DNA of 64,000 bases. Source: Prevotella sp. (lineage in GTDB: Bacteria > Bacteroidota > Bacteroidia > Bacteroidales > Bacteroidaceae). Shown here piece after piece: positions 4,268 to 58,072 of the stretch; the first letter of the stretch is position 1; each line of letters starts with the position of its first letter. The stretch lies in the NCBI GenBank assembly GCA_021204905.1, contig JAJPYN010000007.1, forward strand, positions 108,121-172,120, given 5' to 3'. Position numbers and translations under genes: made by a program. The notes beneath the pieces are model-generated. The model was not told the DNA's origin and made no database searches. It saw only the letters and a list, made by a program, of their open reading frames with translations.

Positions 4268-5140
4268 TCACCCGACGATCTTGGTTTTATGGTAGTTATT
4301 TCGGAACTCGGTGGGCGTGCACCCCTTTTTCTTTCGGAAGATGCGGTTGAAGTAGGAGATGTTGTTAAATCCTGAGGTGTAGCATATCTCGAGGACGGTC
4401 ATTGAGCTGTCGGCCAGCTTTCGTGCGGCATACCCGAGTCGCGTGTCGATGATGTATTCGGAGATGTTCTTGTGGGTGTGCAGTTTGAAGAAGCGGCTGA
4501 ACGCGGAGGGTGTCATGCCCGCTTGCGAGGCGATGTCGGCAAGGCGTATGTCGTCCTTGAAATGTTCGGCCACATAGTCGGTGATCTTCTGTATGCGTCG
4601 GTTGTCGTTGGAGGTGTCTGCCCCGGCGAAGGCGCTGCTGGCCAGTTGGCGGTAGGAAGTCTTCGACAGCTCATAGAGTATCTCGAATAGTCCCGTCATC
4701 CGGTAGAAGCTGTCGGTGAGGGTCAGGAGCGTTTTTATCCGCCCGAAGGAGAGCATGATGGCTTCCATCGAGAAGGCTATGCCCGTTTCGGAGTCTTTGA
4801 GCATGTTCCTGATGCTTGCCATGGCTGCTTTCTCGATGAGCGGACCGGCAAAGATGTCGTCGGCAAACTGTATGGTGATCTCGTAGATGTCGGCAGAGCG
4901 GCATTGGTATTGCTTCCATTCGTGCTCGATGCCCCCGCCGAGCAGGCAGAGGTCGTAGTCGCCAAGCACCTCGAGCGAGTCGCCCACCGTGCGTCTGACG
5001 CCCCGGCAGTTGGCCACGAAATTGAGCTCATACTCGATGTGGCGGTGGAGCGGGTATGTGAAACTCGTCTTGTGGCGCTCGGCAATATAGAAGCAGTCCC
5101 CGCGCTGAAGGGGCGCCACCTCGGTTACTATCTTTGACAT
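4268..5140 (-). CDS. AraC-family transcriptional regulator with N-terminal cupin-like sensor domain
   Basis: C-terminal double HTH: DIRLADIASQAGMTPSAFSRFFKLHTHKNISEYI...MTVLEICYTSGFNNISYFNRIFRKKKGCTPTEFRN. Confidence 0.92.
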   Translation of the reverse strand: MSKIVTEVAPLQRGDCFYIAERHKTSFTYPLHRHIEYELNFVANCRGVRRTVGDSLEVLGDYDLCLLGGGIEHEWKQYQCRSADIYEITIQFADDIFAGPLIEKAAMASIRNMLKDSETGIAFSMEAIMLSFGRIKTLLTLTDSFYRMTGLFEILYELSKTSYRQLASSAFAGADTSNDNRRIQKITDYVAEHFKDDIRLADIASQAGMTPSAFSRFFKLHTHKNISEYIIDTRLGYAARKLADSSMTVLEICYTSGFNNISYFNRIFRKKKGCTPTEFRNNYHKTKIVG

Positions 5141-25002: not shown

Positions 25003-27942
25003 TCAACTGTACCCTTTGCAAAGGGCGCGGAAGGGGCAGTTGTTGCAGAATTTGTCGATGGAGGTGGGGGCGAAGGGCGCGGAAGGGTCGAAAATTTCGG
25101 CGACGACCTGCTCGAGCTGTTGGCTGAACGCGGGTTCGCAGTCGGCGATGTCGTCGATTGGCTGCGCGTCGTTTTTGCCGCCGAATTTCAGGACAGGGTC
25201 GTCGACGCTCGCCTTTTTCTGAATGAAAAGCAGGGCGGGGCGGACGGGCAGCGCGCGCGGGTTGAGCGGTTCGTAGCTGATGCTGCGGTGCTCAAACGGC
25301 TTGTCGGAGCGGCGCACGAGCGTGGCGTAGAGCATGGCTTGGAGATAATAATCGGAATGCTTTTTCTCGATGTTCGCGCTGTTGAAAACCTCGTCGACGC
25401 TGCCGAGCGTTTCCTGCATCCCGCCGCCTGTTTTATAGTCGACCACGCGGAGCACCTCGCCGCCGCCGATGTCGATTCTGTCGAGCCTGTCGATGATGCC
25501 GCCAATCTCAATTTGCCTGCGCTTGCCGTTCACGATGATGTCGAACGTGCCGTAAACAGGGCGCTCGAGACCCTCGATATGCAGCGGCGCAAGGTCGCGG
25601 TCGGCGCGCAGGACGGTCGTGATGTAATGGGCGATCACCTCGCGGTTGATGAGCTGCAAACCGTCGTAACGCGCGCTGCGGCCGTTGAACAGCTCGCGGG
25701 CGATGACGTTGTCGATGGCGCGGCGGATTCTCGCGTGCCCTTTCTCGTCGAGCACGGCATCGATGGCTTCCGGCGCGAGCAGTCTGTTGCTGTCGATGAT
25801 GCTGCCGTAAAGGTCTTCGGCCACGGCGTGAAGAATGGTGCCGAACATGCGGTTGTCGGCGATATCTTCGCTATCGGGCTCGCGGATGCCGGCGATTTTT
25901 TCGAAGTAAAACCTCATCGGGCAGCGCATGTACGTGTTGATTGCCGATGGCGACAGCGACGTGATTTTATTAAGCCCGGCAAGCACCGCACCGCTTTTTT
26001 CGATGCCCGATTTGCGGCCGCGCACAGGCGATTGCTCGGCGCGTAAAGCGAGGTGGGTTAAGTGAAAAACCTTCGGGTCGGTTTCGGCGGTGAGCTGCAA
26101 CATAAACCGGCTCATCTGCCCCGTTTTGCCTTCGTCGGTGGCGCTGTTGTAGGCGATGGTGATGTCGCCGCAGCGTTGCAGCAGACGGTAGAAATAAAAG
26201 GCTTGCACGGCGGTTTTCACCTCGGGCGTGGTCAGGCCGTGCGCGTGGCGGACGACGTAGGGCAGCATCGTCGTACTGTTGACGCCTTTCGGGATGTTGC
26301 CTTCGTTGCACGACAGGATGAGCAGGTGGTCGAAATCGAGGTTGCGCGTCTCGAGCACACCCGTGATTTGCAGTGGCGAGACGGGTTCGCCGCGCAGGGG
26401 CATGGTCGCGCTCCCGGCAATCTGCTCGATGAGGCGCAGCAGCGTTACCGGCGACAAAGGCATCTCGCTGCAAACATCGGCCATGCGCGCGACGATGCCG
26501 TGCATGCGGAAGATCGACTCTTGCGTGAGTTGCTCGTCGTAAGAAATATCATTCGCCGCACTTTCAGCTTCGTCCTCGAGCCTGTTTTTCTCCGTGGCGA
26601 TGCCTGTCCGCCGCAGTATTTCGAGCAAGCGCGAAAGGAGGTCCGCACCGGCATTATCTTCGTCGACAGGCTTGAAAATCAGCGTCAGAATTTCGTCAAC
26701 GCAAAGGTCGTCAGCGGCGAAGGTGAACGAATGGCAATCGAGCAAATCCTTAATTATATCCGGCAGTTCGGGGATGAGCAGCGCGAGCAAAGGGTGGGTG
26801 AGCAGCGCGCGGACGTTCGAGGCGAGGAACGACCGTTCGGCGGCGTTGTAACCGAAGGCGTGCAGGCGCAGGAAATTCGCGGCGAGCGACCGTGCCGGCG
26901 TCTCCGAGAGCGGCAGACCGATGGTGATGTTCGTTTTGCCGGAGACCCCTTGCGGCAGGTAGCGCGCCACGCTGCCGAGCAACCGTTCGTCGGCGAGCAC
27001 AATGGCGGTGTTGCCGTCGCCGCGCCCGTTTTCGCCGAGCCATCTCGCGGCATAACGCGCCTGAACATCCTCCGTTGCGGCGGAGACGAAACAGACATTT
27101 TTCGCCTTCGAGAAATTATCGTAAACCCCACTGTCAATTGGCAGTTCGTTAGGATATTTCTTAAGCCAAAGCCGAACGAAGCGCCCGGCCTCCTGCGTGC
27201 TCGCGGCGGTGTAATAGCTGTCGAAATCCCAATAAAAGCGCGCGCGACCCTTCTTTTGCAACGTATCAAACAGTTGTTGCTCGGCCTCCCACAGCATGTT
27301 GAACCCGACGAAAACATAGTTGTCGCTACTCCAATCGATGGCCTCTGCGCGGGCCGCCACGTCGCGGAATATTGCGCCTTCGTAAGCGAGGTTTTTCGCG
27401 CGCAGCTCGTCGTTGAACGCCGCGTAGATGTCGTAAAGCCTGTTCCACATCTGCGCGAACCGCCGTTTCAACCGCGTGTTATGCTCGTCGGAAAATTCGG
27501 CGAAGAACCTTTTTAACAGTTCGCGCCGCTCGCCGTCGATGTAGTCGATATTGTCGTAAGCGTGGAGGTCGCCCGCGTTGCCGAGCACGAGCCGCGCGTT
27601 GGCTAAATGCTTGTCGATGTCGTCGAAATCGGCCAGCAGAATCTCGCCCCAACCCCAGAAGCGGTCGATGGTCTCGGGCGAGGGGATGAAGCGCTGGTAA
27701 ACGTTGTAAAGGGTGCTCACGGCCTCGATCTTGCCGGCTAACGAGAAGCGGCTCTTGCTGCTGAAAAGTTCCTCGATGGTCAGGTAGCGCGGGCTGAACA
27801 GCGGTTTGCCGGCGATGTCGAGTAGGTATTCGTCGAAATAAAGGCTCGCGCGCTTGTTGGCGAAGACGACGGTGGTGGCGCTCAGGTCGCCGCCGAGCTT
27901 GCGATAGAGGTCGTCCGCCACGTGGTGAAGGAAGGTTTTCAT
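25003..27942 (-). CDS. AddB-like PD-(D/E)XK nuclease/inactive-helicase protein
   Basis: SPSAINTYMRCPMRFYFEKIAGI, RVVDYKTGGG, C-terminal CNNCPFRALCKG (Fe-S staple-type cysteines); overlaps the UvrD-type partner by 4 nt. Confidence 0.85.
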   Translation of the reverse strand: MKTFLHHVADDLYRKLGGDLSATTVVFANKRASLYFDEYLLDIAGKPLFSPRYLTIEELFSSKSRFSLAGKIEAVSTLYNVYQRFIPSPETIDRFWGWGEILLADFDDIDKHLANARLVLGNAGDLHAYDNIDYIDGERRELLKRFFAEFSDEHNTRLKRRFAQMWNRLYDIYAAFNDELRAKNLAYEGAIFRDVAARAEAIDWSSDNYVFVGFNMLWEAEQQLFDTLQKKGRARFYWDFDSYYTAASTQEAGRFVRLWLKKYPNELPIDSGVYDNFSKAKNVCFVSAATEDVQARYAARWLGENGRGDGNTAIVLADERLLGSVARYLPQGVSGKTNITIGLPLSETPARSLAANFLRLHAFGYNAAERSFLASNVRALLTHPLLALLIPELPDIIKDLLDCHSFTFAADDLCVDEILTLIFKPVDEDNAGADLLSRLLEILRRTGIATEKNRLEDEAESAANDISYDEQLTQESIFRMHGIVARMADVCSEMPLSPVTLLRLIEQIAGSATMPLRGEPVSPLQITGVLETRNLDFDHLLILSCNEGNIPKGVNSTTMLPYVVRHAHGLTTPEVKTAVQAFYFYRLLQRCGDITIAYNSATDEGKTGQMSRFMLQLTAETDPKVFHLTHLALRAEQSPVRGRKSGIEKSGAVLAGLNKITSLSPSAINTYMRCPMRFYFEKIAGIREPDSEDIADNRMFGTILHAVAEDLYGSIIDSNRLLAPEAIDAVLDEKGHARIRRAIDNVIARELFNGRSARYDGLQLINREVIAHYITTVLRADRDLAPLHIEGLERPVYGTFDIIVNGKRRQIEIGGIIDRLDRIDIGGGEVLRVVDYKTGGGMQETLGSVDEVFNSANIEKKHSDYYLQAMLYATLVRRSDKPFEHRSISYEPLNPRALPVRPALLFIQKKASVDDPVLKFGGKNDAQPIDDIADCEPAFSQQLEQVVAEIFDPSAPFAPTSIDKFCNNCPFRALCKGYS

Positions 27943-30900
27943 ATTGTCGAAGTTGGCGTAACTTGCGTTATTTTATTGTCGTAAACATACCAAAGGAAGC
28001 CCTCGACGGCGCGGCCCATGTCGCTCAGGAGGCTCATGTAGCGGCGCACCTGCGCGTGATGCTCGGCCTTCGGTGCGGCGAACTTGAAATCGATGACTAC
28101 GGTTCGTGCGCCAAGCTGCACCACGCGGTCGGGTCTCAACCTTTGCGCGAGGCCTGTCTGCGCGTCGGGCGAGAGGATGGTGCATTCGTTGAGGGTCGTG
28201 ATGCCCGGGGCGAACCACTCGTTGACGCGCGCGTCGCTGTTGTGTTCGAGGCGGTTGCGGATGAGCTTCGCGAGGCTTGCGCGGTTCTCTTTTTCCAAAA
28301 CACCCTCGGCGATGAACGCATCCAGCACGCGACCGGCATCGTTGCGGTCGGCAATCTGCGAGAGGAGGTTGTGGAGCAGCGTGCCTTGCCGGATGTACTG
28401 CTGCCGTTCGCTGTCGTCCTCTTCGCCGCAGACAAATGCGCGGCTGCGGTTGCTTTGTCGGAAGGCTATCTGCGTGGCGGGTGCTGCGAGCGGCACGGTC
28501 AGCTTCGCCTTCGAGGGAGTGAAAATATTTTCCGAGTGAGTAGTAGTTGCTACTATCGTCCCTACTTCGCCGAACTCGAAGAACACGTCGTTGTCAGTGT
28601 CGCGTACGTTGCAACGCGCCGGACTTAATTCCGTTTCGATGTCGCGGATGACGCTTTCCACTAATCCCGACCTTCGCGCGAAGCTTATGCTGCCTTTGCT
28701 TATGCTTCTTTTTCCAATGACAAACAGGTCGCGCCGAGCCCTTGTGAACGCCACGTAGAGCAGGTTGAGGTTGTCCACGGCGTTGTTCAGTTTTTCTTCG
28801 AAATAATCGTTTTGGTACACCGTTTCGCGCAGCTTGCTCGATTTCACCGGCACGACGGGCATCTCGCAGTAAGGCTCCTCGCTGCTTTTGCACCATAGCG
28901 TGGTGTCGAGCTCGAGCTTCCAGTCGCAATAGGGCACGATGACGTGCGCGAATTCGAGGCCTTTGCTTTTGTGGATGGTCATCATGCGCACGCCGGGTAC
29001 GTCGCCGCCCTTCACCGTTTTTGCGCCGAGCGTCTTGTCCCAAAAATCGGAGAACGCGGCGGCGTCGGGCAGGTTGGTGCGCACGAACGCGGCGAGGCTG
29101 TCGAAGAACATGTTCACGTAGGCCGCTTCGCCTTGCAGCCGCTCGATGGAGAACATTGCCGAAATCGCCGCAGCCATAGCTGTTAAAGGCATTTTCGACA
29201 ATTTTTCTTTCTCTTTGACGAACGTTTCGGGCAGCAATTCAGCTATGCTTTCTTTGTCGCGGAAAACGATGCCGGCGGGGTCGAGATTGCGGATGTAAAC
29301 GCTGTAATCCCACGCCAGCGCCGCACTGTAAAACGCCGGTTGGATGCCCGCCGCGACGCGCATGGCGTTGACGATGATGTTCAGCGCGACGGAGCTGCTC
29401 AGCTTGAACGCCTCGTCCGAAACGAACCGGCAGTGGGGCAGCAGCCGCTCGATGTCCGCACCGACGGCCTCGATGTCTTTGTTCCTTCGCGCGATGATGG
29501 CGATGTCCTCTTCTTTCACGCCGGCGGCAAGCAGTTCGCTGATGTGCTCGGCAATCATTTCGACGCAGCGCGAAGATTTATCGTCCTTGTCGAGAAGCGC
29601 CACTTTTACGCGCCCGCCATTACCGCTCGAGGCGCATTGTTGCTGCGTCTCGCCGTCGGAATAGATGCTGCCGATGAGCTCCGCGCCGGGCACGCCCTCG
29701 GCCTCCAACCGCGCTTGCTCCTGACGTGCGGCGAGGCGGAAAAAGGCGTTGTTGAAAGCGATGATGCCGGGTTCGGAACGATAATTTGTTAACAAGGTTT
29801 CAATTTGTAAGTCCTTGTCTTTCAGTGAGTTATCTTCGGCGATATTATTCAAAATGCGCCAATCGGAATTGCGCCAGCGGTAGATGCTTTGCTTCACGTC
29901 GCCCACGATGAGGTTTTGCGAACAGTCGCGCGCGAGGCATTCGAGCAGCAGTTTTTTGAAGTTCTCCCACTGCACGACGCTCGTGTCTTGCATCTCGTCG
30001 ATCATGATGTGGGTGATGCGCGCGCCGGTCTTCTCGTAAACAAAGGGTGCGTCGCTGCCCTCCATGAGCTGTTTGAGCAGCATCTGCGTGTCGGAAAGCA
30101 TGAGGCTGTTCGTCTCTTTATTTACCTCCTCGACGCCCTGTTCGATCTTCCTGAGCAGCCTTACTTCGTTCAAATTCGCGAGTACCGCGCAGGCTGACAG
30201 ATAGCTCACGGCAGCCTTTTGCCGCTGCTCTTCCGCGTGCGCAATTAAAGGCACAAGCTGCTCTTCGGCAAAGGTTAAAATCGCGCCGTACTGGTCGTCT
30301 TTCCTCAGCCACGCCTTAGCATCCTGCGCCGCCTTTGCCGCCGTGTCGTTAAATGTCTTGCTGTCGGGCCATACGCCGTCGCGCAGCTTCGCGAAATACG
30401 CCGCCGGCCCCCTCTGACCGTTTTTGAAATCGTTTATCGAATAGCCGTGCGAGGCAATCAACTCGAAAAAACCGTTGCCAATGGCCGCCATCTCGCTCAT
30501 CGCCGTGTCCATATCGCTGCGCAACCTGTTGCGGAACGCGGCGAAGAAACCCTCTTTGTTTATTGCCTCATCGATGGCCTTCGCGTTCTCGCGGTAGTCG
30601 TCGGTGAAGATTGTTTTGCCGAACTTGCGGATGGCGTCGAGCACGTTCCATTTCTTGTCGTCGAGGATGTTCTGGCGAATGTAATCCATAATCCACGCGA
30701 GCTCCTTGTCGTTCGGACGGAGGTTGGTCAGCAGGCGGTCGACGGCGAGCTGCTCCACCTCGTCCTGCCCGAGCTCCACGCGCATGTTGCAGTTCAGCTC
30801 GAGCTCCCGCGCAATGCCGCGCAGCACACGCTGGAAGAACGAGTCGATGGTCTCGACGTTGAAATTGCCGTAATCGTGGAGGATGAGCGCGAGGGCGCGG

Positions 30901-31172
30901 CGTGCTTGTTCGCGGACGAAAGGCTCGCCGAAGCCGTAGACACTGGTGATCTCGCGAAGGTAGACATCGCTGTCGCGGAGGCCGGCGGCGAGGCCGTAGA
31001 GCTGGCTGAGGATGCGGTTTTTCATCTCTTCGGTCGCCTTTGTGGTGAATGTTACGGCGAGGATTTCCTTGTACGCCGCGGGGTTGCTGACAAGCAGGCC
31101 GATGAACCGGGCGGTGAGGCTGAACGTTTTGCCGCTGCCCGCGCTTGCTTTAAACACGGTTAGTTTGCCCAT
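27939..31172 (-). CDS. AddA-like UvrD/Rep helicase with C-terminal PD-(D/E)XK nuclease domain
   Basis: MGKLTVFKASAGSGKTFSLTARF (Walker A), IDEMQDTSVVQWENF, IHKSKGLEF, TVVIDFKFAAPKAEHHAQV. The listed ORF start (31307) is too far upstream. Confidence 0.9.
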   Translation of the reverse strand: MGKLTVFKASAGSGKTFSLTARFIGLLVSNPAAYKEILAVTFTTKATEEMKNRILSQLYGLAAGLRDSDVYLREITSVYGFGEPFVREQARRALALILHDYGNFNVETIDSFFQRVLRGIARELELNCNMRVELGQDEVEQLAVDRLLTNLRPNDKELAWIMDYIRQNILDDKKWNVLDAIRKFGKTIFTDDYRENAKAIDEAINKEGFFAAFRNRLRSDMDTAMSEMAAIGNGFFELIASHGYSINDFKNGQRGPAAYFAKLRDGVWPDSKTFNDTAAKAAQDAKAWLRKDDQYGAILTFAEEQLVPLIAHAEEQRQKAAVSYLSACAVLANLNEVRLLRKIEQGVEEVNKETNSLMLSDTQMLLKQLMEGSDAPFVYEKTGARITHIMIDEMQDTSVVQWENFKKLLLECLARDCSQNLIVGDVKQSIYRWRNSDWRILNNIAEDNSLKDKDLQIETLLTNYRSEPGIIAFNNAFFRLAARQEQARLEAEGVPGAELIGSIYSDGETQQQCASSGNGGRVKVALLDKDDKSSRCVEMIAEHISELLAAGVKEEDIAIIARRNKDIEAVGADIERLLPHCRFVSDEAFKLSSSVALNIIVNAMRVAAGIQPAFYSAALAWDYSVYIRNLDPAGIVFRDKESIAELLPETFVKEKEKLSKMPLTAMAAAISAMFSIERLQGEAAYVNMFFDSLAAFVRTNLPDAAAFSDFWDKTLGAKTVKGGDVPGVRMMTIHKSKGLEFAHVIVPYCDWKLELDTTLWCKSSEEPYCEMPVVPVKSSKLRETVYQNDYFEEKLNNAVDNLNLLYVAFTRARRDLFVIGKRSISKGSISFARRSGLVESVIRDIETELSPARCNVRDTDNDVFFEFGEVGTIVATTTHSENIFTPSKAKLTVPLAAPATQIAFRQSNRSRAFVCGEEDDSERQQYIRQGTLLHNLLSQIADRNDAGRVLDAFIAEGVLEKENRASLAKLIRNRLEHNSDARVNEWFAPGITTLNECTILSPDAQTGLAQRLRPDRVVQLGARTVVIDFKFAAPKAEHHAQVRRYMSLLSDMGRAVEGFLWYVYDNKITQVTPTSTI

Positions 31173-31195
31173 TTTCGTTAAAAATAATGCTTTTC

Positions 31196-31227
31196 CAAAA
31201 TTAAGGGTTTTCCGCCGCAACGCCAAG
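31196..31227 (-). promoter_or_regulatory. Promoter of the AddA/AddB-like operon: CTTG-N20-TAATTTTG on minus strand
   Basis: CAAAATTA (31196-31203) and CAAG (31224-31227) on +; spacing 20 nt fits the Bacteroides consensus TTTG-N19-21-TAnnTTTG. Confidence 0.65.
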
Positions 31228-31334
31228 CCCGGGGGCGAATAAAGTTGGAAAAGGCTCGGATGAATCTTAGTTGCTACTAATCCCCCGACACACTTCTGCG
31301 CAAGCACTTCGCAGTTGTCAGCGTTCGGTTCGTT

Positions 31335-32675
31335 TCAACGTCTGCGGCGAGTTATAACCAATGTTTGCTTAGTGTTTTTCGAAATGCGGAAACGGTTGTC
31401 GGTGCGCAGTCCCGCGACCCACGCGATGCGGCCGTTGTCGTCGGCGATGATGCTTTGCTGCGGGCGTTCGACGAGAGGGATGCCTTTTTCTGCGAAGAAA
31501 TCGCTTAGTTTTTTCCTGCCACGCATGCCGAACGGGATGAACTCGTCGCCTTGTCGCGGTGCGCGGATGATGAGCGGGAAGGGGATTTTCGCGGCGTCGA
31601 GCGAGGCGCAATCAGGCTCTTTTTTTACTTCAAAATTTTCGTCAATAGGCACGATTTTGAAGGTGAATTGCCACGCGCCGAAATTGAATGTGCCTTCGCC
31701 GGGAACGCTTGTGGCTATTGGACTTTCGGCGACTGGCGCGACGAGCAATTTGCCGCGATTGACGACGAGCGTGTGCGTTGCCGAGCGCCATTGTTTGCCC
31801 GTTTGTGCATTGACGTTCCGGAAGATTTGGGCGGTTTGCTTCGGCGTGAACCCGCGCGTTTTGAGCATGTGCCAAAGGATGGTTTCGGGCGCGACTTCGG
31901 CGAGCAGTTTTTTTATCGAGATGACGGTTCGGTTGTCGTTAAATTCGACGATGCGGCTGGCGGCTTCGTTGACGGCGCGGCTTAGTAGCGGCAGGCAGTC
32001 GACCACGTGCGCGGCAGTGGCGGCGATGTTTGCGGCGGCGGCGGGGTTGAGGCGCGTCAGGAGCGGCATGATGCGCAGGCGGAGGAAGTTGCGCTGTACG
32101 TCGTCGCGGAGGTTGGTGGAGTCGGTGATGTAGTCCTGACCGATGGCGGCGAGATGGGCGAGGATTTCGCTGCGGCTTACGGCGAGCAACGGGCGGACGA
32201 TGCGGTTGTTGCGCGGCGCGATGCCTTTGAGACCGTCGATGCCTGTGCCGCGGAGGAGGTTGAGCAGGAGCGTCTCGGCGTTGTCGTCGCGATGATGTGC
32301 TACGGCGACGGCGTCTGCTGCGGTGGTGCTGAGGAGCTGTTCGAACCACGCGTAACGCTGCTCGCGCGCGGCCATCTCGATGCTTATTGCGCGTCTTTTC
32401 GCGTAGTCTCTCGTGTCGAACCGCATGGTGTGGAGTTTCACGCCGAGCCTTTTGCAGAGGGCTTCGCAGAACTGTTCGTCGCGGTCGGATTCGCTGCCGC
32501 GCAGACCGAAATTGCAGTGCGCCGCCTCGATGCGGAAACCGAGCGCAAGCAGCACGCGCAACAGGCACACGCTGTCGGGTCCGCCGCTGAGGGCGACGAT
32601 GGTGAGTGCGCTGCGGTTGAGCAGGTCCCGCTCGGCAATGAACGCATCGATTTTTTTCAGGAAAGCATCGGCCAT
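31335..32675 (-). CDS. tilS: tRNA(Ile)-lysidine synthetase
   Basis: PP-loop VALSGGPDSVCLLRVLLALG, AHCNFGLRGSESDRDEQFCEALC, AHHRDDNAETLLLNLLRGTGIDGLKGI. Start moved from TTG 32699 to ATG 32675. Confidence 0.93.
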   Translation of the reverse strand: MADAFLKKIDAFIAERDLLNRSALTIVALSGGPDSVCLLRVLLALGFRIEAAHCNFGLRGSESDRDEQFCEALCKRLGVKLHTMRFDTRDYAKRRAISIEMAAREQRYAWFEQLLSTTAADAVAVAHHRDDNAETLLLNLLRGTGIDGLKGIAPRNNRIVRPLLAVSRSEILAHLAAIGQDYITDSTNLRDDVQRNFLRLRIMPLLTRLNPAAAANIAATAAHVVDCLPLLSRAVNEAASRIVEFNDNRTVISIKKLLAEVAPETILWHMLKTRGFTPKQTAQIFRNVNAQTGKQWRSATHTLVVNRGKLLVAPVAESPIATSVPGEGTFNFGAWQFTFKIVPIDENFEVKKEPDCASLDAAKIPFPLIIRAPRQGDEFIPFGMRGRKKLSDFFAEKGIPLVERPQQSIIADDNGRIAWVAGLRTDNRFRISKNTKQTLVITRRRR

Positions 32676-47213: not shown

Positions 47214-47242
47214 TCCTTACCGCAAACTAATAACAACGAAAG

Positions 47243-47273
47243 GGCGGGTCAAGCTTTTTGACCTGCCTTTTTT
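47243..47273 (+). terminator. Rho-independent terminator after GH10
   Basis: GGCGGGTCAA (47243-47252) pairs with TTGACCTGCC (47258-47267), then T6. Confidence 0.85.
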
Positions 47274-47336
47274 GTTGCCTTTATCTTAGTCGCTACTAAA
47301 ATCCTTGCCTGTGCTGCGCCAACAAGCGTTTGAATT

Positions 47337-47445
47337 GCCGTCCGGTTCGTTTCAACTGCCGTTTGGTTCGTTTCAACTGCTATGTTTTAACGTTGTCATT
47401 ACTATGTTTTAACGACCTTATTACTATGCTTTTAATACCTTTGTT
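47337..47445 (+). repeat. Tandem short repeats (21-bp and 22-bp periods) upstream of the GH35-like operon
   Basis: GCCGTCCGGTTCGTTTCAACT / GCCGTTTGGTTCGTTTCAACT, then CTATGTTTTAACGTTGTCATTA / CTATGTTTTAACGACCTTATTA / CTATGCTTTTAATACC. Confidence 0.85.
47436..47443 (+). promoter_or_regulatory. -7 box TACCTTTG for the GH35-like operon
   Basis: Matches TAnnTTTG and sits at the downstream end of the repeat array; no clear -33 box. Confidence 0.55.
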
Positions 47446-47533: not shown

Positions 47534-49270
47534 ATGAACAACGACAATCGAATGAAAGCAATCTTTTTGACGGCGGCGCTCGCGTGGGCGGCATGGGCGT
47601 GCGTGCCGGCGCAGACAAGCGGTTTAATAAAGCAGGGTTCGGCGGTGCAGCTGACTGTCGACGGCGAGCCTTTCCTCGTGCTGGGCGGCGAGCTGGGCAA
47701 CTCGTCGGCAACGTGCGCGGCGGACATCGAGCGCATTTTCCCGAAGCTGGAACGTATGGGGCTGAACACCGTTCTTGTGCCCGCGTATTGGGATTTGACG
47801 GAGCCGAGCGAGGGCGCGTTTGACTTTTCGCTCACCGACAAGGTGATTGAGCAAGCTCGGACGAACGGTCTGAAGGTTGTCTTCTTGTGGTTCGGCGCAT
47901 GGAAAAACTCGATGAGCTGTTACGCGCCGGCGTGGTTTAAGGCTGACTATAAGCGTTTCCCGCGTGCCGAGACCGCCGGGGGCAAGCCGTTGGAGATAGC
48001 GAGCGTCTTTTCCGAAGAGGTGTTCCGCGCCGACAACCGCGCCTTCGCTGCGTGGCTGAACCATCTTGCCGCCGTCGACAAAGATTCGGGTACGGTGATT
48101 ATGATACAGGTGGAGAACGAGATCGGCATGCTCGAAGACGCGCGCGACCATTCCCCCGCGGCGGACAAGGCATTTTCTTCTTTAGTCCCGAAGGCGCTTA
48201 TTGATTTTTTGAAAGCTAACAAGAAAACGCTTCACCCCGAGATGAAGGCGAAGTGGGAGGCGCAAGGCTGCAAGACTACAGGCACGTGGCGCGAGCTGTT
48301 CGGCGACGACATCTACACCGACGAGATATTTATGGCGTGGCAATATGCGTGCTATGTGGAGCGTATGGCGCAGACGGCGCGCGGCATTTTCGATGTCCCG
48401 CTCTATGTGAATGCCGCCATGAACAGCCGCGGACGCAAGCCGGGCGAGTACCCGTCGGCAGGACCCTTGGCACATCTGATTGACGTTTGGCACGCCGGAG
48501 CGCCGGGCATTGACGTCCTCGCGCCCGATTTATACGACAGCGGCTTTACCGATTGGGTCAAGAAATATCATCTGCCGAACAACCCGCTGTTCATTCCGGA
48601 GATACAACTTTCCGACAACGACGGCGTGAGGGCTTTCTATGTCTTCGCCGAGCACGACGCGATGGGGTTCAGTCCGTTCTCCATCGAGGACGGTTCCGAC
48701 GACAATAACGCGCCGTTGGTCAGGGCTTACGCGACGCTGAAGGAGTTGATGCCCTTGCTGACAAAGTATCAGGGGACGGGCGCGCTGCACGGTCTGCTGT
48801 TCGACGAGGACAACAAGGAGCGCGTCATCACCGACGGCGACCTGACCATCACCTGCCGCCACTACTTCACTCTGCCGTGGGATCCGCGCGCGACAGACGG
48901 TTCGGCGTGGGCTGAGGGCGGCGGTCTGCTGTTGCGTCTGGCGGAGAACGACTATATCCTTGCCGGCAGCGGCATCGTCGCGGAGTTCGCCAAGACGACG
49001 GAGAAGGATGCTTCCGGTACGGCGAAAGCGTTGGGCGAGGACGGTTTCGTGCTGGCTAACGACGGCGAGGAAGTCGCGAATGTCGGCGGCGGAAAGTTCG
49101 CCGGAATGCGCCAGGGGTTGGCGTCGGTGGAGGAGGTTGTTGTCAATAGCGACGGCAGCCTCACGCGCGTGCGCAGCTTGGGCGGCGACCAGACCCACCA
49201 AGGGCGGCACGTGCGCATCTCCGTAGACGAGTTTAAAATCCTGCATGTGAAACTTTACGAATATAAATAG
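47534..49270 (+). CDS. GH35-like (DUF5597-type) glycoside hydrolase, secreted
   Basis: FLVLGGELGNSSATCAADIERIFPKLERMGLNTVLVPAYWDLTEPSEGAFDF, IMIQVENEIGML, NPLFIPEIQ. Alternative start ATG 47552. Confidence 0.8.
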   Translation: MNNDNRMKAIFLTAALAWAAWACVPAQTSGLIKQGSAVQLTVDGEPFLVLGGELGNSSATCAADIERIFPKLERMGLNTVLVPAYWDLTEPSEGAFDFSLTDKVIEQARTNGLKVVFLWFGAWKNSMSCYAPAWFKADYKRFPRAETAGGKPLEIASVFSEEVFRADNRAFAAWLNHLAAVDKDSGTVIMIQVENEIGMLEDARDHSPAADKAFSSLVPKALIDFLKANKKTLHPEMKAKWEAQGCKTTGTWRELFGDDIYTDEIFMAWQYACYVERMAQTARGIFDVPLYVNAAMNSRGRKPGEYPSAGPLAHLIDVWHAGAPGIDVLAPDLYDSGFTDWVKKYHLPNNPLFIPEIQLSDNDGVRAFYVFAEHDAMGFSPFSIEDGSDDNNAPLVRAYATLKELMPLLTKYQGTGALHGLLFDEDNKERVITDGDLTITCRHYFTLPWDPRATDGSAWAEGGGLLLRLAENDYILAGSGIVAEFAKTTEKDASGTAKALGEDGFVLANDGEEVANVGGGKFAGMRQGLASVEEVVVNSDGSLTRVRSLGGDQTHQGRHVRISVDEFKILHVKLYEYK

Positions 49271-49284
49271 CCCCCGATTTTATT

Positions 49285-50910
49285 ATGAAAACCCTGCGAA
49301 TTATACTCTTTGCCGCGTGCCTCTGCCTGCCTGTTTGCGCCGGGGCGAAGGTCGTGTTGCCCGCGCTGATCTCCGACGGGATGGTGTTGCAGCGCGACGT
49401 GCCCAACAAGCTGTGGGGCAAGGCGGATGCCGGCGAGACGGTTACGGTGCGGTTTCTGAAAAAGACCTATACTGCGGCGGCGGATGAGAACGGCGATTGG
49501 AGCGTCGTCCTGCCGGCGGTGAAGGCGGGCGGACCGTATGAATTGATTATTGCGGACATACATATTAATGACGTGTTGGCGGGCGATGTGTGGCTCTGCT
49601 CCGGGCAATCGAACATGGAACTGCCCGTCAGCCGCGTAACGGATATGTTCGCCGACGAGGTGGCGGCATACGAGAACACGATGATACGCCATTTTATCGT
49701 GCCGAAAACGTTTAATTTCCACGCGCCGCAAGAGGAGTTGCCCGACGCGCGTTGGGCAGCCCTGACGCAGGAGAACGTGATGAATTACTCCGCGCTGGCT
49801 TATTTTTTTGCCAAAGAGATGTATGCCCGGACGGGCGTGCCGATCGGGATTGTCAATGCCAGCTGGGGCGGCACGCCGGTGGAGGCGTGGATGAGCGGCG
49901 AGGCGTTAGCGGCGTTTCCGAAGTATGCGAACGAGAAACGGCTGTATGAGGACGACGGCTATCGCGACCGCATAAAGGCGCTCGAGGGCGAGAATTTCTA
50001 CCGTTGGAACAGCGTGCTGTATGCTGCGGACAGCGGTCTGCATGCCTCGCCGGCGTGGTATTCGCCCGATTTCGACGACAGCGGATGGACGGCGGTGGAT
50101 ATGTTTTCATCCGCCTGGGGCACCAACGGACTGAACCCCGTCGCGGGTTCGCACTGGTTGCGCAAGGATATTGATTTGCCGGCGGAGTGGGAGAACGCCC
50201 CTGCCGTCTTGCGTCTGGGCTGCATCATCGACGCCGATTCGGTGTATGTCAACGGCACGTTTGCAGGCACGACGGGGTATATGTATCCGCCTCGCATTTA
50301 CAACATCCCCGCGGGAGTGCTGCACGAGGGGCGGAACAACGTTACCGTTCGTATCATCAGTAACGGCGGCAAACCCGCTTTCGTGCCGGAGAAACCGTAT
50401 AAGATAATAATGACGACGGCAGAGGGCGCGACGGAGGAGGCAAGTCTCGAAGGGCTATGGCGGTATCACGAGGGTGCGCCGATGCCTCCCGCGCCGAATA
50501 TGATGTTCTATTGCTACGAGCCGGAGTGCCTTTACAACGCGATGATTGCACCGCTTAAAAACCTGCATTTCAAAGGCGTGATTTGGTATCAGGGCGAGGC
50601 GAATGTCGACCGGCGCAACGAATACGCGCCGCTGCTGACGGCGATGATAGGCGACTGGCGGCGCACGTTCGACGCTCCCGCTTTGCCTTTCTACATCGTG
50701 GAGTTGGCTGACTATCTGCCGAAGGATGACACCGGCGGACGGCAGGCGTGGGCGGAGATGCGCGAGGCACAGGCGCAGGCTGCGTCCGCGACCGATAATG
50801 CGTGGCTGATACTCAACAGCGACCTCGGCGAATGGAACGATATTCATCCGCTCGACAAGAAGACGCTCGGACGGCGTATTGTGGAAAAGGTCGTTGAGAA
50901 CGAGAAATAA
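49285..50910 (+). CDS. Secreted SGNH sialate O-acetylesterase-like / CE20-like acetylesterase with inserted jelly-roll domain
   Basis: SGQSNMELPV, GIVNASWGGTPVEAWM, GVIWYQGEANVDR; inserted segment SPDFDDSGWTAVDMFSSAWG...LRKDIDLPAEW...VYVNGTFAGTTGY. Confidence 0.83.
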   Translation: MKTLRIILFAACLCLPVCAGAKVVLPALISDGMVLQRDVPNKLWGKADAGETVTVRFLKKTYTAAADENGDWSVVLPAVKAGGPYELIIADIHINDVLAGDVWLCSGQSNMELPVSRVTDMFADEVAAYENTMIRHFIVPKTFNFHAPQEELPDARWAALTQENVMNYSALAYFFAKEMYARTGVPIGIVNASWGGTPVEAWMSGEALAAFPKYANEKRLYEDDGYRDRIKALEGENFYRWNSVLYAADSGLHASPAWYSPDFDDSGWTAVDMFSSAWGTNGLNPVAGSHWLRKDIDLPAEWENAPAVLRLGCIIDADSVYVNGTFAGTTGYMYPPRIYNIPAGVLHEGRNNVTVRIISNGGKPAFVPEKPYKIIMTTAEGATEEASLEGLWRYHEGAPMPPAPNMMFYCYEPECLYNAMIAPLKNLHFKGVIWYQGEANVDRRNEYAPLLTAMIGDWRRTFDAPALPFYIVELADYLPKDDTGGRQAWAEMREAQAQAASATDNAWLILNSDLGEWNDIHPLDKKTLGRRIVEKVVENEK

Positions 50911-50934
50911 ACAAAGATAAAAAGACTGATAACT

Positions 50935-52344
50935 ATGAATCCAACAGACATTAAGGGAGGCGAAGAGAAAGGCTTTTACAAACTGTCGTGGTTGCAGCGA
51001 ATCGGCTTCGGCTCGGGCGACCTTGCGCAAAACCTTATCTATCAGACGGTGTGCATGTACTTGCTGCTGTTCTACACCAACGTCTACGGGCTCGACCCGT
51101 CGGCAGCGGCGTTTATGTTTCTTATCGTGCGCGTGGTCGATGTGCTGTGGGACCCGCTCGTGGGCACCTTTGTAGACAAGCACAACCCGCGGCTGGGCAA
51201 GTACCGCTCCTATCTCGTGCTTGCCGGCGTGCCGCTGACGGGTTTCGCCATCCTGTGTTTCTGGAACGGCTTCTCCGGCTCGCTGTTGTATGCCTACATC
51301 ACTTACGTCGGTTTGTCGATGCTCTATACCCTTATCAACGTGCCTTACGGGGCGCTTAATGCCTCGCTCACGCGCGACACGAACGAGATAACGACGCTGA
51401 CAAGCGTGCGCATGTTCCTCGCCAACACGGGCGGTCTGGCGGTGGCTTACGGCATCCCGAAGCTTGTCGCAGCCCTCTCGCCCGACGGCTTGACCAACAC
51501 GAAAGAGAGCGCCGGGGCATGGTTTACGACGATGGCGATTTACGGCGTGTGCGGGCTGTTGCTGCTTATCTTCTGTTTCAGCCAGTGCAAGGAGCGGGTC
51601 GTGATGGACGCCAAGGAGACGGAGAACGTGAAAGTGTCCGACCTGTGGGTGGAGTTTGTGCGCAATCGTCCGTTGCGCGTGCTCGCCTTCTTCTTCATCA
51701 CCGCCTTCGCGATGATGGCCGTGGGCAACTCGGCGGGGTCGTATTATATGATTTACAACGTGCACGGCTCGTCGAACGATATGGCGAACTTCATGGCGCT
51801 GGGCTCCATCCCGTCGTTCATCTTTATGCCTATGGTGCCGTGGATAAAGAAGAAAATCGGCAAGCGGGCGATGTTCAACGTGTTCCTGACCATAGCAATC
51901 GTGGGTATGGCGATGCTGTATATCATATCGATGACGCCCGCGCTGAAAGGCGAGATATGGCTCGTCTATGTGGCGCAGTTTATTAAATCGACGGGCGTAA
52001 TCGTGGCGACGGGGTATATGTGGGCGCTTGTGCCTGAGGTGATCTCCTACGGCGAGTACACCACCGGCAAGCGCATCTCGGGCATCGTCAACGCTCTGAC
52101 CGGCATCTTCTACAAGGCGGGCATGGCGCTGGGCGGTGTCGTGCCGGGTCTCGTGCTGGCTTACGTGGGTTTCGACAATAGTAATGCGACGGAACAATCG
52201 CCGTTTGCCGAGCAAGGCATCCTATGGCTCGTGGCGGTAATCCCGGCGTTGCTGCTCCTCCTTGCGATGTTCATCATCTCCAAATATGAACTCGACGACA
52301 AGACGATTGACGAGATTAACAAGAAAATAGAAGAGAAACGATGA
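50935..52344 (+). CDS. MFS/GPH-family sugar:cation symporter
   Basis: [32 protein letters not shown], multiple TM segments. Confidence 0.9.
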
Positions 52345-55034
52345 GAGCTAAACGACTATTATTCAGCGTCATAACGGCGCTTCTGCTCGCCTCTTGCAGC
52401 AACTCCGACGCGGTATCCGCCGGCGATGACTGGTCATTAAAGGGCGCTTTCGGCGACAGGTTCCTTGTCGGAGCGGCAATCAACCAGCTCCAATCGTCGG
52501 GGCAAGACACGGCGGCGGTGGAGGTGATACGCCGGCATTTCAATTCGATAGTGGCGGAGAACTGCATGAAATGCGAGGCTATTCACCCCGAAGAAAACCG
52601 TTACGACTTTGTTGCCGCCGACTCGCTGATGGATTTCGGCGAGGCTTCCGGCATGGCTGTCATCGGGCACTGTCTCATCTGGCACTCGCAGTGTGCGCCG
52701 TGGTTCTTCACCGACAGCGACGGCAATCAAGTGTCGGCGGAGGTGTTGAAGCTGCGAATGAAAGACCATATCACCACCATCGTCAGCCGCTACAAGGGGC
52801 GCGTGCACGGCTGGGACGTGGTGAACGAGGCGATTCTCGAGGACGGCACCTACCGGCAGAGCAAGTTCTACGAGATACTCGGCGAGGAATACATCCCCCT
52901 TGCGTTCAGCTATGCTCACGAGGCTGACCCCGACGCGGAACTTTATTACAACGATTATGCGATGAACATGCCCGCCAAGCGCGAGGCAGTGGTGAGGCTG
53001 GTGCGCTCGCTGAAAGAGCGGGGCTTGCGCATAGATGCCGTCGGGATGCAGGGACACATGGGGATGGACTACCCCGACATCGGCGAGTTTGAAGAGAGTA
53101 TAAAAGCGTTTGCCGCAGAGGGAGTGAACGTGAACATCACCGAATGGGATATGAGCGCGCTGCCTACAGTAAGCCGCTCGGCGAATGTTGCCGACAAGGT
53201 GGAATACGAACAGGCGATGAACCCTTACCCCGACGGTCTGCCCGACAGCATCAGCCGGCAGTGGAACGCGCGGATGAAGGCCTTCTTCGAGTTGTTCCTG
53301 CGCCATTCCGACGTCATCACGCGCGTTACGGCGTGGGGCGTGTCCGACGGCGACTCGTGGAAAAACGACTATCCCATGAAAGGACGAAAGGAGTACCCGT
53401 TGCTCTTCGACCGCAATTATCAACCCAAGCCGTTTGTCAGAGAGCTGTGTAATCCGAAGAAGGCTGTGTTCGGCTCGTTCGTTTATTCGGCTCTTGAAGA
53501 AGCTGTCGGTGACGGTGCTGCGGCGGACATCGCCAATCCGATATTGCCCGGCTGCTATCCCGACCCGAGCATCTGCCGCGCGGGAGACGATTATTATTTA
53601 GTCAATTCCTCCTTTGTCTTCTATCCCGGCATACCTATCTGGCACAGCAAAGACTTGAAGACGTGGACGCAACTCGGCTATGTGCTCAACCGTCCGTCGC
53701 AAGCAAACTTCCCCGACGGGCTGCGCATCAGCGGCGGCATCTATGCTCCCGACTTGAAATATAATCCTAACGACAAGTTGTTTTATCTGATTGTAACCGA
53801 CGTGGACGGCGGCGGCACTTTCTTCGTTACCACCGACGACCCGAAGAAATGCTCGTGGAGCGACCCGACCTACCTGCCTGAGGTGGGCGGTATAGACCCG
53901 AGCTTCCTGTTCGACGACGACGGTAAAGCGTATATCGTGAATAACGATGCGCCCGAAGGAACGCCGCTCTACGACGGACACCGCGCCATTTGGATACGCG
54001 AATTTGATTGGAAGAACGGCACGACAACGGGCAAGGCGCAGATGATAATCAACGGCGGAGTGGACATTTCGAAGCATCCGGTTTGGATAGAAGGTCCGCA
54101 CTTGTATCACATAGGCGGCGCTTACTACCTCATGGCAGCGGAGGGCGGCACCGGCACTGACCACAGCGAGGTGGTGTTCCGCGCCGAAAAGCCGTTCGGT
54201 CCGTTCACCCCTTGCGACATAAATCCTATTCTCACGCAGCGTGATTTGCCTGCCGGCAGACCTAATCCCGTTACGTGCACGGGGCATGCCGACCTCGTCG
54301 AGACGGCGGACGGAGATTGGTATGCCGTGTTCCTTGCCGTGCGCCCGTATCGCGACGACCACGATGTGATGGGGCGCGAGACGTTCCTGCTGCCCGTTAA
54401 ATGGACTGATAATCAGCCTGTTATACTGCCGCAGGGCGAAGTGCTGACATATTCCGCTCATCCCGTTCCCGCCACGCCGCTGTGGACGAAAGAGGGGTTG
54501 GCAAACGAGGCGATATTCATCCGCACGCCGCAAACCGCTTACTACGATATCGACAACAAGGGACGGCTGTCGCTCGCGTGCCGCAGTGTCAGGCTGAGCG
54601 ACGAAGGGCAACCGTCCGTCATCGGGCGTTGGGCGACGAGCGGCAACATTTGCGCGCAGACCTCCCTCGCTTTCAAACCCGCGACGACCGACGATTTTGC
54701 GGGCATAACGGTGTTCCACGACGACAGCCACTACATAGCTTTCGGCAAGACGATAGACGACGGAGGGCAGCCGTGCGTCAAACTCGCAGCATACAACGGC
54801 GGCGAATATCAGAGCATAGATGTTGCCTCGCTGAGCGGTGATGATGCCGGCAAGGAACTGTGGCTGAAAGTGGAGAGCGACGGAAAAGTGAATTATTCAT
54901 TCAGTTGGACGTTCAACCCGAAAGGCGAATGGACGCAGCTCGGCGAGCCTATTTCGGCAGACATGCTTAGCACACATACCGCCGGAGGGTTCACTGGCAC
55001 GCTTGTGGGCATCTACGCCGGCGCCGCGTATTAA
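52341..55034 (+). CDS. Bimodular GH10 xylanase - GH43 xylosidase/arabinofuranosidase, lipoprotein
   Basis: GH10: [36 protein letters not shown]; then GH43: [55 protein letters not shown] in one uninterrupted frame. Confidence 0.9.
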
Positions 55035-55077
55035 CCAAAAAAGTATCGAAACGAAACTAACCAAAACAATAACAAAG

Positions 55078-56046
55078 ATGAAAGAGAAAAGATATTTGTT
55101 CCCTGCCGACTATATGGCAGACCCGTCGGTGCACGTGTTCAACGACCGCGTTTATATCTATCCCTCGCACGATTGGGAATGCGAGAACGTCGAGAACGAC
55201 AACGGCGACCAGTACGTGATGAAAGACAGCCACGTGCTCTCCACCGACGACCCGATGCACGGCGAAGTAACCGACCACGGCAAGGTGCTCGACATCGTAG
55301 ATATTCCTTGGGCGGGACGACAGCTGTGGGACTCCGACGTGGCGGAGAAAGACGGCAAATACTACCTCTATTTCCCGTTGAAGGACCGCAACGACATCTT
55401 CCGCACGGGTGTTGCCATCGGCGACCGCCCCGAAGGACCGTTCATCCCGCAGCCCGACCCGATACGCGGCAGTTACAGCATCGACTACTGCGTCCTGAAA
55501 GACGGGGAGGATTATTATATGTATTTCGGCGGTCTGTGGGGCGGACAACTGCAACGCTACAAGGACAATAAGGCGTTGGAAGAGCCCTATCTGCCCGAGG
55601 GCGACGCGCCGGCGCTGCCGAGCAGGATGGTGAAACTGAGCAAGGACATGCTGCAGTTTGCCGAAGAGCCGCGCCCCGTTTATGTCGTGGATGCCGCCGG
55701 CGAGCCGCTGAAAGCTAACGACCCGCACCGCTTCTTCGAGGCAAGCTGGGTGCATAAATATAACGGGAAGTATTATTTCTCTTACTCCACGGGCGACAGC
55801 CATCTGCTCTGTTATGCCGTGAGCGACACGCCTTTCGGTCCGTTCACCTATCAGGGAGTGATTCTCACGCCGGTTGTGGGCTGGACCACTCACCATTCCA
55901 TCATCGAATACCACGGCAAATGGTACCTTTTCCATCACGACAGCGTGCCCTCCGGCGGCAAGTCGTGGCTGCGCAGCCTGAAAGTGTGCGAACTGGAATA
56001 CGATGCCGAAGGGCACATCATCACTATTGACGGCGGCGGCGAATAA
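55078..56046 (+). CDS. GH43 beta-xylosidase/alpha-L-arabinofuranosidase, probably cytoplasmic
   Basis: MADPSVHVFNDRVYIYPSHDWE, LWDSDVAEKDGKYYLYFPLKD, FFEASWVHKYNGKYYFSYSTGD; no signal peptide. Start moved from 55003. Confidence 0.88.
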   Translation: MKEKRYLFPADYMADPSVHVFNDRVYIYPSHDWECENVENDNGDQYVMKDSHVLSTDDPMHGEVTDHGKVLDIVDIPWAGRQLWDSDVAEKDGKYYLYFPLKDRNDIFRTGVAIGDRPEGPFIPQPDPIRGSYSIDYCVLKDGEDYYMYFGGLWGGQLQRYKDNKALEEPYLPEGDAPALPSRMVKLSKDMLQFAEEPRPVYVVDAAGEPLKANDPHRFFEASWVHKYNGKYYFSYSTGDSHLLCYAVSDTPFGPFTYQGVILTPVVGWTTHHSIIEYHGKWYLFHHDSVPSGGKSWLRSLKVCELEYDAEGHIITIDGGGE

Positions 56047-56059
56047 GGCTGTTAACTAT

Positions 56060-58072
56060 ATGATATACAGATTCTTTCTCGCGCTCGGCTTGCTGTTTGT
56101 CTCTTTCCCGGCGACGGCCGCCGACGACAGCACCAACCTCTGGCTGCCGCAAGGCGGAGGAATCGGAGCGCAGATCACCGCCTCGAAGCAGTCGCCGACC
56201 GTCGCTATTGCCGTGGATGAGCTTACTGCGGCGTGGCGGGGGCAACCCGTTATATTAGAAATAAAGAAGATAAAAGAGCTCGACAAGGAAGGCTATCGTC
56301 TGTCCGTTGCCAAGGATAAGATAGTCGTCAGCGCGCCGACGGATGCGGGACTGCTCTATGCCGCGTACGATTTGCTGCGGCGGCAGGCGACGGAGACGCC
56401 TTACCCCGAGGGCATCAGCGATGTCAATCCCGCCGTGCCGATACGCGTGCTTAATCACTGGGACAACCTCGACCGCACCGTTGAGCGCGGGTATGCGGGG
56501 CAGTCGCTGTGGGAATGGGACGCTTTGCCCGACAGCCTGTCAGACAGATACGTCGTCTACGCCCGCGCCAACGCTTCGATAGGCATCAACGGCACGGTGC
56601 TCAACAACGTCAACGCCTCGCCGCAAATCCTTTCGTCGGACTATCTCGCCAAGGTGAAAGCGCTCGCCGACGTGTTCCGACCCTATAACATAAAGGTGTA
56701 CCTTTCGGTCAATTTCGCCTCTCCGATGGTGCTCGACGGTATCGCGACGGCAGACCCGGCGGACAAGGCGGTCGTCAGTTGGTGGCGGGAGAAGGTGAAA
56801 GAGATTTACCGGCTCATCCCCGACTTCGGCGGTTTCGTGGTCAAGGCAAACTCCGAGGGGCAGCCGGGACCGTGCGACTACGGACGGACGCACGCCGAAG
56901 GCGCGAACATGATTGCCGATGCGCTGCGTCCCTACGGCGGCATACTCTTCTGGCGCGCCTTCGTTTACAACCCGACCGATGCCGACAGAGCGAAGCAATC
57001 GTACATCGAGTTTCAACCTTTCGACGGACAATTCCGCAGCAACGTCATAATACAAGTGAAGAACGGACCGATGGATTTCCAGCCGCGCGAGCCGTATAGT
57101 CCGCTGTTTACATCGATGAGCCGCACCGCGCTCGCCGCCGAGTTGCAAATAACGCAGGAATATCTGGGACATTCCAACCATCTCGTTTATCTCGCGCCGC
57201 TGTGGAAAGAGTTCTTCGGCTTCGTCCCGGAGACAAAGCTGAGAGCCGTTGCGGGCGTGGCGAACACCGGCACGGACGCGAACTGGTGCGGCAACGTTAT
57301 GGCGCAATCGAACTGGTATGCCTTCGGACGACTGGCGTGGGACGCGTCCCTGACGGAGGAGGAGATTCTTGGCGAGTGGACGATGCAGACGTTCAGCCGG
57401 GGGAAAGAGATTATTGCCGGCGGCGCACTGAACAAAATAATGCTCTCTTCGCGCGAGGCGGCGGTCAACTATATGATGCCGCTCGGACTGCACGGACTGT
57501 TCGCTTGGGGACACCACTACGGACCCGAGCCGTGGTTCTTCAGGGATGATGTCCGCGAAGACTGGACATGTCCTTATTACCACCGGGCGGACAGTCTTGG
57601 TTTGGGTTTCGACCGCAGCGTGACGGGAAGCAACGCCGTGGCGCAATATCCCGCCGACCTTGAACGGCTGTATGGCAACATTGACACCTGTCCGGAGGAA
57701 TACCTGATGTGGTTTCACCACGTGGCGTGGACGCACGAGATGAGCAGCGGACGGACGATGTGGGACGAGCTGTGCCTGCGCTACCAGAAAGGCGTGGAGC
57801 AAGTGAGACAGTTCCAAGTGTTGTGGGACAAGGTGGCGCCGTATGTGTGTCGCTGTCAAGCCGACGAGGTGAGGACGATGCTCATCACGCAGGTGCGCGA
57901 CGCGGTATGGTGGAAAGACGCTTGCCTGCTCTATTTCCAACAGTTCTCACGCTTGCCGTTCCCCGACGGGATGGAGCGTCCCGTGCACGAGCTTGACGAT
58001 TTGGAGCGGGTCGAACTGCCTATCACCAACTTTGAATGTCCGTCGTCCGAGCTGCTCAACACGCTCCGTTAG
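56060..58072 (+). CDS. GH67 alpha-glucuronidase, secreted
   Basis: NHWDNLDRTVERGYAGQSLWEW, FGGFVVKANSEGQPGPCDYGRTHAEGANM, WYAFGRLAWDASLTEEEI, YHRADSLGLGFDRSVTGSNAV. Confidence 0.95.
   Translation: MIYRFFLALGLLFVSFPATAADDSTNLWLPQGGGIGAQITASKQSPTVAIAVDELTAAWRGQPVILEIKKIKELDKEGYRLSVAKDKIVVSAPTDAGLLYAAYDLLRRQATETPYPEGISDVNPAVPIRVLNHWDNLDRTVERGYAGQSLWEWDALPDSLSDRYVVYARANASIGINGTVLNNVNASPQILSSDYLAKVKALADVFRPYNIKVYLSVNFASPMVLDGIATADPADKAVVSWWREKVKEIYRLIPDFGGFVVKANSEGQPGPCDYGRTHAEGANMIADALRPYGGILFWRAFVYNPTDADRAKQSYIEFQPFDGQFRSNVIIQVKNGPMDFQPREPYSPLFTSMSRTALAAELQITQEYLGHSNHLVYLAPLWKEFFGFVPETKLRAVAGVANTGTDANWCGNVMAQSNWYAFGRLAWDASLTEEEILGEWTMQTFSRGKEIIAGGALNKIMLSSREAAVNYMMPLGLHGLFAWGHHYGPEPWFFRDDVREDWTCPYYHRADSLGLGFDRSVTGSNAVAQYPADLERLYGNIDTCPEEYLMWFHHVAWTHEMSSGRTMWDELCLRYQKGVEQVRQFQVLWDKVAPYVCRCQADEVRTMLITQVRDAVWWKDACLLYFQQFSRLPFPDGMERPVHELDDLERVELPITNFECPSSELLNTLR

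Follow-up and report, generated by a model that had tools for sequence, protein, structure and literature searches.

Results

Organization of the GH35 promoter region

The window analyzed here is a stretch of 64,000 nucleotides from a Prevotella genome (G000; 1.96 Mb, 19 contigs, 93% complete). A SusCD-SGBP-GH10 unit and a GH35 operon with genes for xylan degradation are separated by an intergenic region containing two kinds of repeats. Beyond the window, genome sequence was taken as stretches around repeat copies and contig ends. The following features, all on the + strand, were identified:

28509-28619 (+): third copy of a ~105-bp element, degenerate (E 1.1e-6), in a poorly conserved linker of a helicase ORF (27939-31307, - strand)
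31229-31343 (+): second copy of the element (model E 2.8e-14)
47238-47272 (+): intrinsic terminator of the upstream SusCD-SGBP-GH10 unit, a 16-pair stem followed by a T-run
47248-47360 (+): ~105-bp element copy (model R1, 63.6 bits, E 2.9e-10; G000:C10:155368-155480)
47283-47297 (+): element box 1, ATCTTAGTCGCTACT (consensus ATCTTAGTTGCTACT)
47344-47356 (+): element box 5, GGTTCGTTTCAAC, which forms its 3' end, with the canonical box 1 offset of +61..+65
47358-47378 (+): 21-bp tandem duplicate of the box-5 unit; similar 18-22-bp 3'-end duplications occur at other copies
47380-47401 (+): CTATG-family unit 1, 22 bp (TRF, two-unit pattern, shuffles)
47402-47423 (+): CTATG-family unit 2, 22 bp (TRF, two-unit pattern, shuffles)
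47424-47435 (+): CTATG-family unit 3, truncated, exactly 22 bp past unit 2 and abutting the -7 box (G000:C10:155522-155554, one mismatch)
47436-47443 (+): -7 box TACCTTTG of the GH35-operon promoter
47534-49270 (+): first gene of the downstream unit, GH35/GH42-like, DUF5597
49285-58072 (+): remainder of this unit, encoding a SASA esterase, an MFS_2 transporter, GH10-GH43, GH43 and GH67

The two 21-bp units read GCCGTCCGGTTCGTTTCAACT (47337-47357) and GCCGTTTGGTTCGTTTCAACT (47358-47378); CTATGTTTTAACG begins at 47380 and again at 47402, CTATGCTTTTAATACC begins at 47424, and the repeat units run into the -7 box. TRF detected one array at 47327-47380 (period 21, 2.6 copies, score 80) and a second at 47380-47435 (period 22, 2.5 copies, score 75), which were the two top scores in the window. 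The extra 0.6 unit of the first array, 47327-47336, is the interior of the dispersed element. The pair pattern CTATGNNTT-N13-CTATGNNTT matched twice here as compared to no match in 100 dinucleotide shuffles. Sequence, TRF and shuffles thus confirmed the arrangement given in a preliminary description of this DNA, namely two 21-bp units, two 22-bp units and a degenerate third unit in front of a -7 box.

The same description had proposed a promoter lacking a -33 box, and this also held. Reading of the -33 region, about 20 bp upstream of 47436, revealed neither TTG nor TTTG; of the two elements of Bacteroidales sigma-ABfr promoters, the TAnnTTTG -7 box was present and the TTTG -33 box was absent. 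In the fetched stretches of the own genome, 63 of 109 called starts had TA..TTTG in the preceding 200 bp, as compared to only 9 of 123 stops. As this motif is common upstream of starts and rare near stops, the -7 box is credible. The terminator match alone is weak, with 0.9 matches expected in shuffles, but it lies just past the GH10 stop at 47213 and is in keeping with a separately transcribed GH35 operon. The proposed independent switching of the GH35-GH67 unit relative to the SusCD unit agrees with this terminator; the activator array that was to bring it about was not borne out by the results below.

Orthologous operons and candidate regulators

Eleven orthologous GH35 genes (61-69% identity, the nearest only ~69%) were inspected. 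A TA..TTTG motif was found within 100 bp upstream of 8 of them, and neither repeat unit was found upstream of any. A search of the 93%-complete assembly for the Y_Y_Y sensor domain of HTCS regulators yielded no match, and only three AraC-type HTH_18 domains were present in the genome, in open frames of 295-331 aa. Hence, the HTCS route has no regulator here. Among the properties of HTCS/AraC operators of PULs, direct repeats spaced by 20-21 bp upstream of a PUL promoter were observed, but confinement to a regulon, conservation upstream of orthologous operons and a cognate hybrid two-component regulator in the genome were not found. One of the three HTH_18 proteins, a 290-aa AraC-type regulator, is encoded at 4268-5140 (- strand) of the window, ~43 kb from the PUL.

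Origin of the 21-bp units from the end of an interspersed element

In the own genome, TTCGTTTCAACTGC gave 76 matches at ≤2 mismatches as compared to 9 in the control, and ATCTTAGTTGCTACT, which sits ~65 bp upstream of it, gave 150 as compared to 2. Alignment of the copies revealed a common ~105-bp unit, GCGAGCGGAGTTT...ATCTTAGTTGCTACT...CCGGCTCA...GCGG...GTTCGTTTCAAC. A model derived from 37 copies detected 136 copies in the 1.96-Mb genome (E ≤ 0.01), including the three in the window. Conservation broke off abruptly at both ends. Pairs of copies were up to 94% identical over 86-107 bp, some of them 90-94% over most of the unit, and best partners lay <50 kb apart in 19 cases versus 5.9 expected. 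According to a simple codon-based gene caller, 110 of the 136 copies were located outside ORFs; 46 were found between convergent and 17 between divergent genes. Insertion of the degenerate copy into the helicase gene was considered and dismissed, as this copy lies in a variable linker with no clear insertion relative to ~42%-identical orthologs.

The element was absent from 99 relatives by model search, its exact two-box pattern had no match in GTDB r220 contigs, which possibly do not include the own species, and no copy was found on plasmids, phages or viral contigs. Like a MITE, it is a short non-coding high-copy repeat, but the ends of 101 copies showed no excess of direct or inverted k-mers that would indicate terminal inverted repeats or a target-site duplication. 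The consensus folded worse than 199 of 200 shuffles and a covariance model contained 4 pairs only; a structured RNA or single-stranded DNA was therefore rejected. A known RNA family was rejected as well, with Rfam yielding only a sub-threshold L20-leader match that ends upstream. An origin from a RAYT/REP system was likewise discarded: the flanks of the one Y1_Tnp gene (C17:99152) carry other hairpins and no element copy, and the element has no fold. With no known mobiliser, the ~105-bp element represents a new interspersed repeat restricted to this species. The Y1_Tnp (RAYT-like) gene itself, at C17:99152-99493, is accompanied by its own flanking hairpin repeats, e.g., AACGTCTCCGACGTT and CCCCACGTTTCTACGTGGGG, which constitute a different family.

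Tandem arrays of 15-30 bp covered 10.2% and 7.6% of the bases at element edges, the former value referring to 3' edges in the fetched stretches, as compared to 3.6% of other intergenic DNA. Several element-end arrays repeat box 5 together with a locus-specific flank, as does the pair studied here. In the 21-bp pair, the dispersed element's 3' end has been duplicated in tandem, and the two copies are nearly identical.

Three further observations concern this family. A five-unit 22-bp array at C7:4902-5010 is built from element box 1 (CTTAGTTGCTACT), hence different parts of the element expand with similar period. An element copy with its 21-bp box-5 array (C7:97658-97854) falls within an open frame of 422 aa, where translation would yield a repeat peptide of the VETNVKA type. 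A dispersed sequence, TGTCGCGTACCTTCGGCACGCA, was found near element copies and contig ends (C6:65229, C6:77082, start of C17, C19:51773).

The 22-bp units belong to a family of dispersed CTATG arrays

The two-unit pattern matched 16 times in the own genome, 47 times in G012, 23 times in G006 and 20 times in G063, with no match of the reversed-pattern control in these four genomes and ≤2 matches in the remaining relatives. This corresponded to about 8 loci in the own genome and tens of loci in 3 of ~70 sampled congeners. CTATGTTTTAACG occurred as 22-bp pairs also at the ends of C16 and C18, within a ~200-bp near-duplicate, and variant arrays were found on C1, C2/C6, C7, C10 and C17. Their neighbors are unrelated (DUF5715, DUF3737, an S41 peptidase, a GtrA protein), and the own arrays share no flanks except those in the C16/C18 duplicate. 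On plasmids, phages and viral contigs no CTATG arrays were found except in one 1.77-Mb Prevotella record filed under plasmids, which contained two pairs, both of 22 bp, in the 240 kb examined. Neither repeat was described in the papers searched.

The end of C16 and the start of C18 carry a ~200-bp repeat, 91% identical, holding a CTATG array, and the end of C2 and the start of C6 meet in such an array. Because these contig ends fall in CTATG arrays, assembly may fail at such arrays. A repeated block of greater length (~300 bp by eye) occurs at ≥10 loci in G012 and encloses many of its CTATG units; it resembles a mobile element with the array as cargo.

Spacing and conservation of the CTATG units

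In the four species, adjacent cores were spaced by 22 bp in 124 pairs, by 44 bp in 16 pairs, and by 23 and 30 bp once each; as the loci were retrieved by a pattern fixing 22 bp, one pair per locus is not independent evidence for spacing; ~38 of the 57 pairs in G006 are extra to the retrieving pair. The congener unit consists of roughly (C)AAAASCTATGCTTTT plus ~7 free bases, with two to seven units per array; in some congener arrays, the last unit is inverted and stays in the 22-bp register. A constant TA..TTTG at +13 in G012 was rejected as a promoter and not counted, since it comes from the inverted unit itself (TAGCTTTG).

The core of ~15 bp was conserved, with an identity of 0.83-0.96; in G063 it was 0.96 within arrays and 0.95 between loci. 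Core positions contained in the search expression are conserved by construction, yet the flanking A/T arms, which lie outside it, were conserved too. Identity of the intervening bases within arrays and between loci was 0.37 and 0.36 in G063, 0.28 and 0.44 in G012, 0.50 and 0.34 in G006, and 0.59 and 0.53 in the own species. Recent tandem duplication should leave intervening bases alike, as seen in the 21-bp units, but not in most CTATG arrays. Since in G063 and G012 units of one array resemble each other in their intervening bases no more than units of different loci do, we infer selection on phasing rather than fresh duplication. In G006, where they are somewhat more alike within arrays, there is some local duplication. 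Thus, the proposed helical phasing, with all copies facing the same side of the DNA, is supported for the 22-bp units, which keep exactly 22 bp in four species although their intervening bases vary; the 21-bp pair is a tandem duplicate of an element end.

Furthermore, A/T tracts were located at offsets -5, 6, 17 and 28 in G006, G012 and G063, i.e., every 11 bp. Such regularly recurring A/T tracts are a property of intrinsically curved DNA. The own-species core is less A/T-flanked, so that curvature is weaker.

Position relative to genes

With respect to codirectional genes, arrays had the same orientation in 16 cases and the opposite one in 15, and their convergent or divergent placement was roughly that of the background. 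The CTATG arrays have no consistent promoter orientation and are not tied to promoters. Among the own loci with a co-oriented gene downstream, the array precedes TA..TTTG in three (window, C1 and C18), which leaves room for a regulatory role. Among the own arrays, only the one studied here abuts a -7 box; the other two co-oriented TA..TTTG motifs are 60 and 94 bp away.

Discussion

The intergenic region is probably (about 0.7) a junction of two dispersed-repeat systems, in which the 22-bp array docks a putative, presumably architectural protein that is not specific for this operon. The segment 47248-47360 is a copy of the ~105-bp interspersed repeat whose 3' end was tandemly duplicated into 21-bp units, and 47380-47435 belongs, with three units, to a family of 22-bp-spaced arrays in intergenic DNA of the own and some related species. 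Slippage or unequal recombination, acting at one end of what was once a mobile element, may have given rise to the 21-bp units, which would have no operon-specific function. The 22-bp units could serve as same-face docking sites for a putative sequence-specific, probably oligomerising or architectural protein, and docking may be helped by the A/T tracts in congeners. Because the array reaches up to the -7 box and takes up the -33 region, its occupancy would locally help or block RNA polymerase, and a local effect on the GH35 promoter is possible. The array at this promoter would not be a xylan-specific operator.

The region had originally been described as looking like an activator array for the GH35-GH67 unit. 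In a reading of this kind, an AraC-type regulator, either an HTCS or a stand-alone protein, would bind the 21/22-bp direct repeats and turn on this unit in the presence of xylan. Its attraction lies in the predicted HTCS operators of Bacteroides, which are direct repeats with a similar centre-to-centre spacing of 20-21 bp (16+5, 12+9 and 14+6 bp) upstream of PUL promoters (PMC3878776), in the contact of the array with a credible -7 box that has no -33 element, and in the terminator between the two operons. However, HTCS operators comprise two sites per promoter and are restricted to a regulon (PMC3878776), whereas here up to seven units form an array, and the genome-wide search found both unit types dispersed beside unrelated genes and not restricted to the operon. 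Absence of the units from orthologous operons in close relatives had been named beforehand as the result that would speak against an activator array, and this absence was found at all 11 orthologs, although the nearest of these has an identity of only ~69%. In addition, no HTCS was found, AraC-type domains are limited to three short frames, and the other CTATG arrays are not oriented toward promoters. A dedicated activator array is therefore unlikely.

The main rival is that both arrays are pure minisatellites, neutral products of replication slippage in repeat-rich intergenic DNA without a binding protein. The frequency of 15-30-bp arrays in intergenic DNA and at element 3' edges agrees with this, as do their highest density between convergent genes, although numbers are small, and the near-identical duplications in the 21-bp pair and many element-end arrays. 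But slippage leaves unexplained both the exact 22 bp, given the divergence of intervening bases in G063 and G012, and the inverted units in the same register; we consider neutral arrays possible, though rather doubtful. Tandem RNA hairpins acting as bidirectional terminators (AAAAGC-TAT-GCTTTT) are highly improbable. Units of G063 and some of G012 can form a 6-bp stem followed by a T-run, and some arrays lie near gene 3' ends; however, the arms are non-complementary in G006 (AAAACC/GCTTTT) and in the own species (ATTAC/GTTTT), although both retain CTATG and the 22-bp spacing, 47327-47445 has no folding advantage over shuffles (as single-stranded DNA), and arrays occur also between divergent genes. 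We therefore favor docking DNA for a putative protein, and most likely the CTATG array abuts the GH35 promoter by chance.

Such docking sites might tentatively be seen as a new dispersed system in intergenic DNA of the Prevotella lineage, made up of CTATG sites phase-locked at strictly 22 bp, although we rate this at somewhat less than even odds; the putative protein would organise the chromosome or tune many promoters, and selection on helical spacing would keep the sites while intervening bases drift. If protein-bound, the family would amount to a new system for DNA organisation or global regulation, in a lineage that is abundant in gut and rumen. Its presence in G000, G006, G012 and G063 and its lack in ~65 others mean that phyletic profiling could directly find the protein. 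Furthermore, a phased array beside a PUL promoter can turn out to be one instance of repeats that occur throughout the genome, and hence should be checked genome-wide before it is named an operator.

The nearest described system is BrickBuilt, a minisatellite-MITE of Porphyromonas gingivalis with a 23-nt unit at ~19 loci, which makes up 0.44% of the genome and has some copies that drive transcription (PMC4596501). It shares with the repeats described here the order Bacteroidales, the period and the dispersed intergenic tandem arrays of units with a conserved and a non-conserved half. BrickBuilt has leader and tail segments and terminal inverted repeats (PMC4596501), whereas CTATG units are 22 nt long, own arrays show no leader or tail, and neither inverted ends nor target duplication were detected in the ~105-bp element. 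Pneumococcal BOX resembles the element as a small interspersed repeat with a variable tandem module, enriched downstream of genes; however, it consists of boxA, boxB and boxC and has terminal inverted repeats, target duplication and RNA structure (PMC3049150), in contrast to the poorly folding element, whose tandem unit also takes in locus-specific flank. The element thus works like BOX/REP-type interspersed repeats, but fails their inverted-end and palindrome tests. The TAACTGA repeats of Beggiatoaceae likewise are sets of direct repeats dispersed in intergenic DNA and may have a regulatory role; they have a heptamer period and are oriented, mostly just upstream of start codons (PMC4679880), whereas the CTATG arrays are unoriented with respect to genes.
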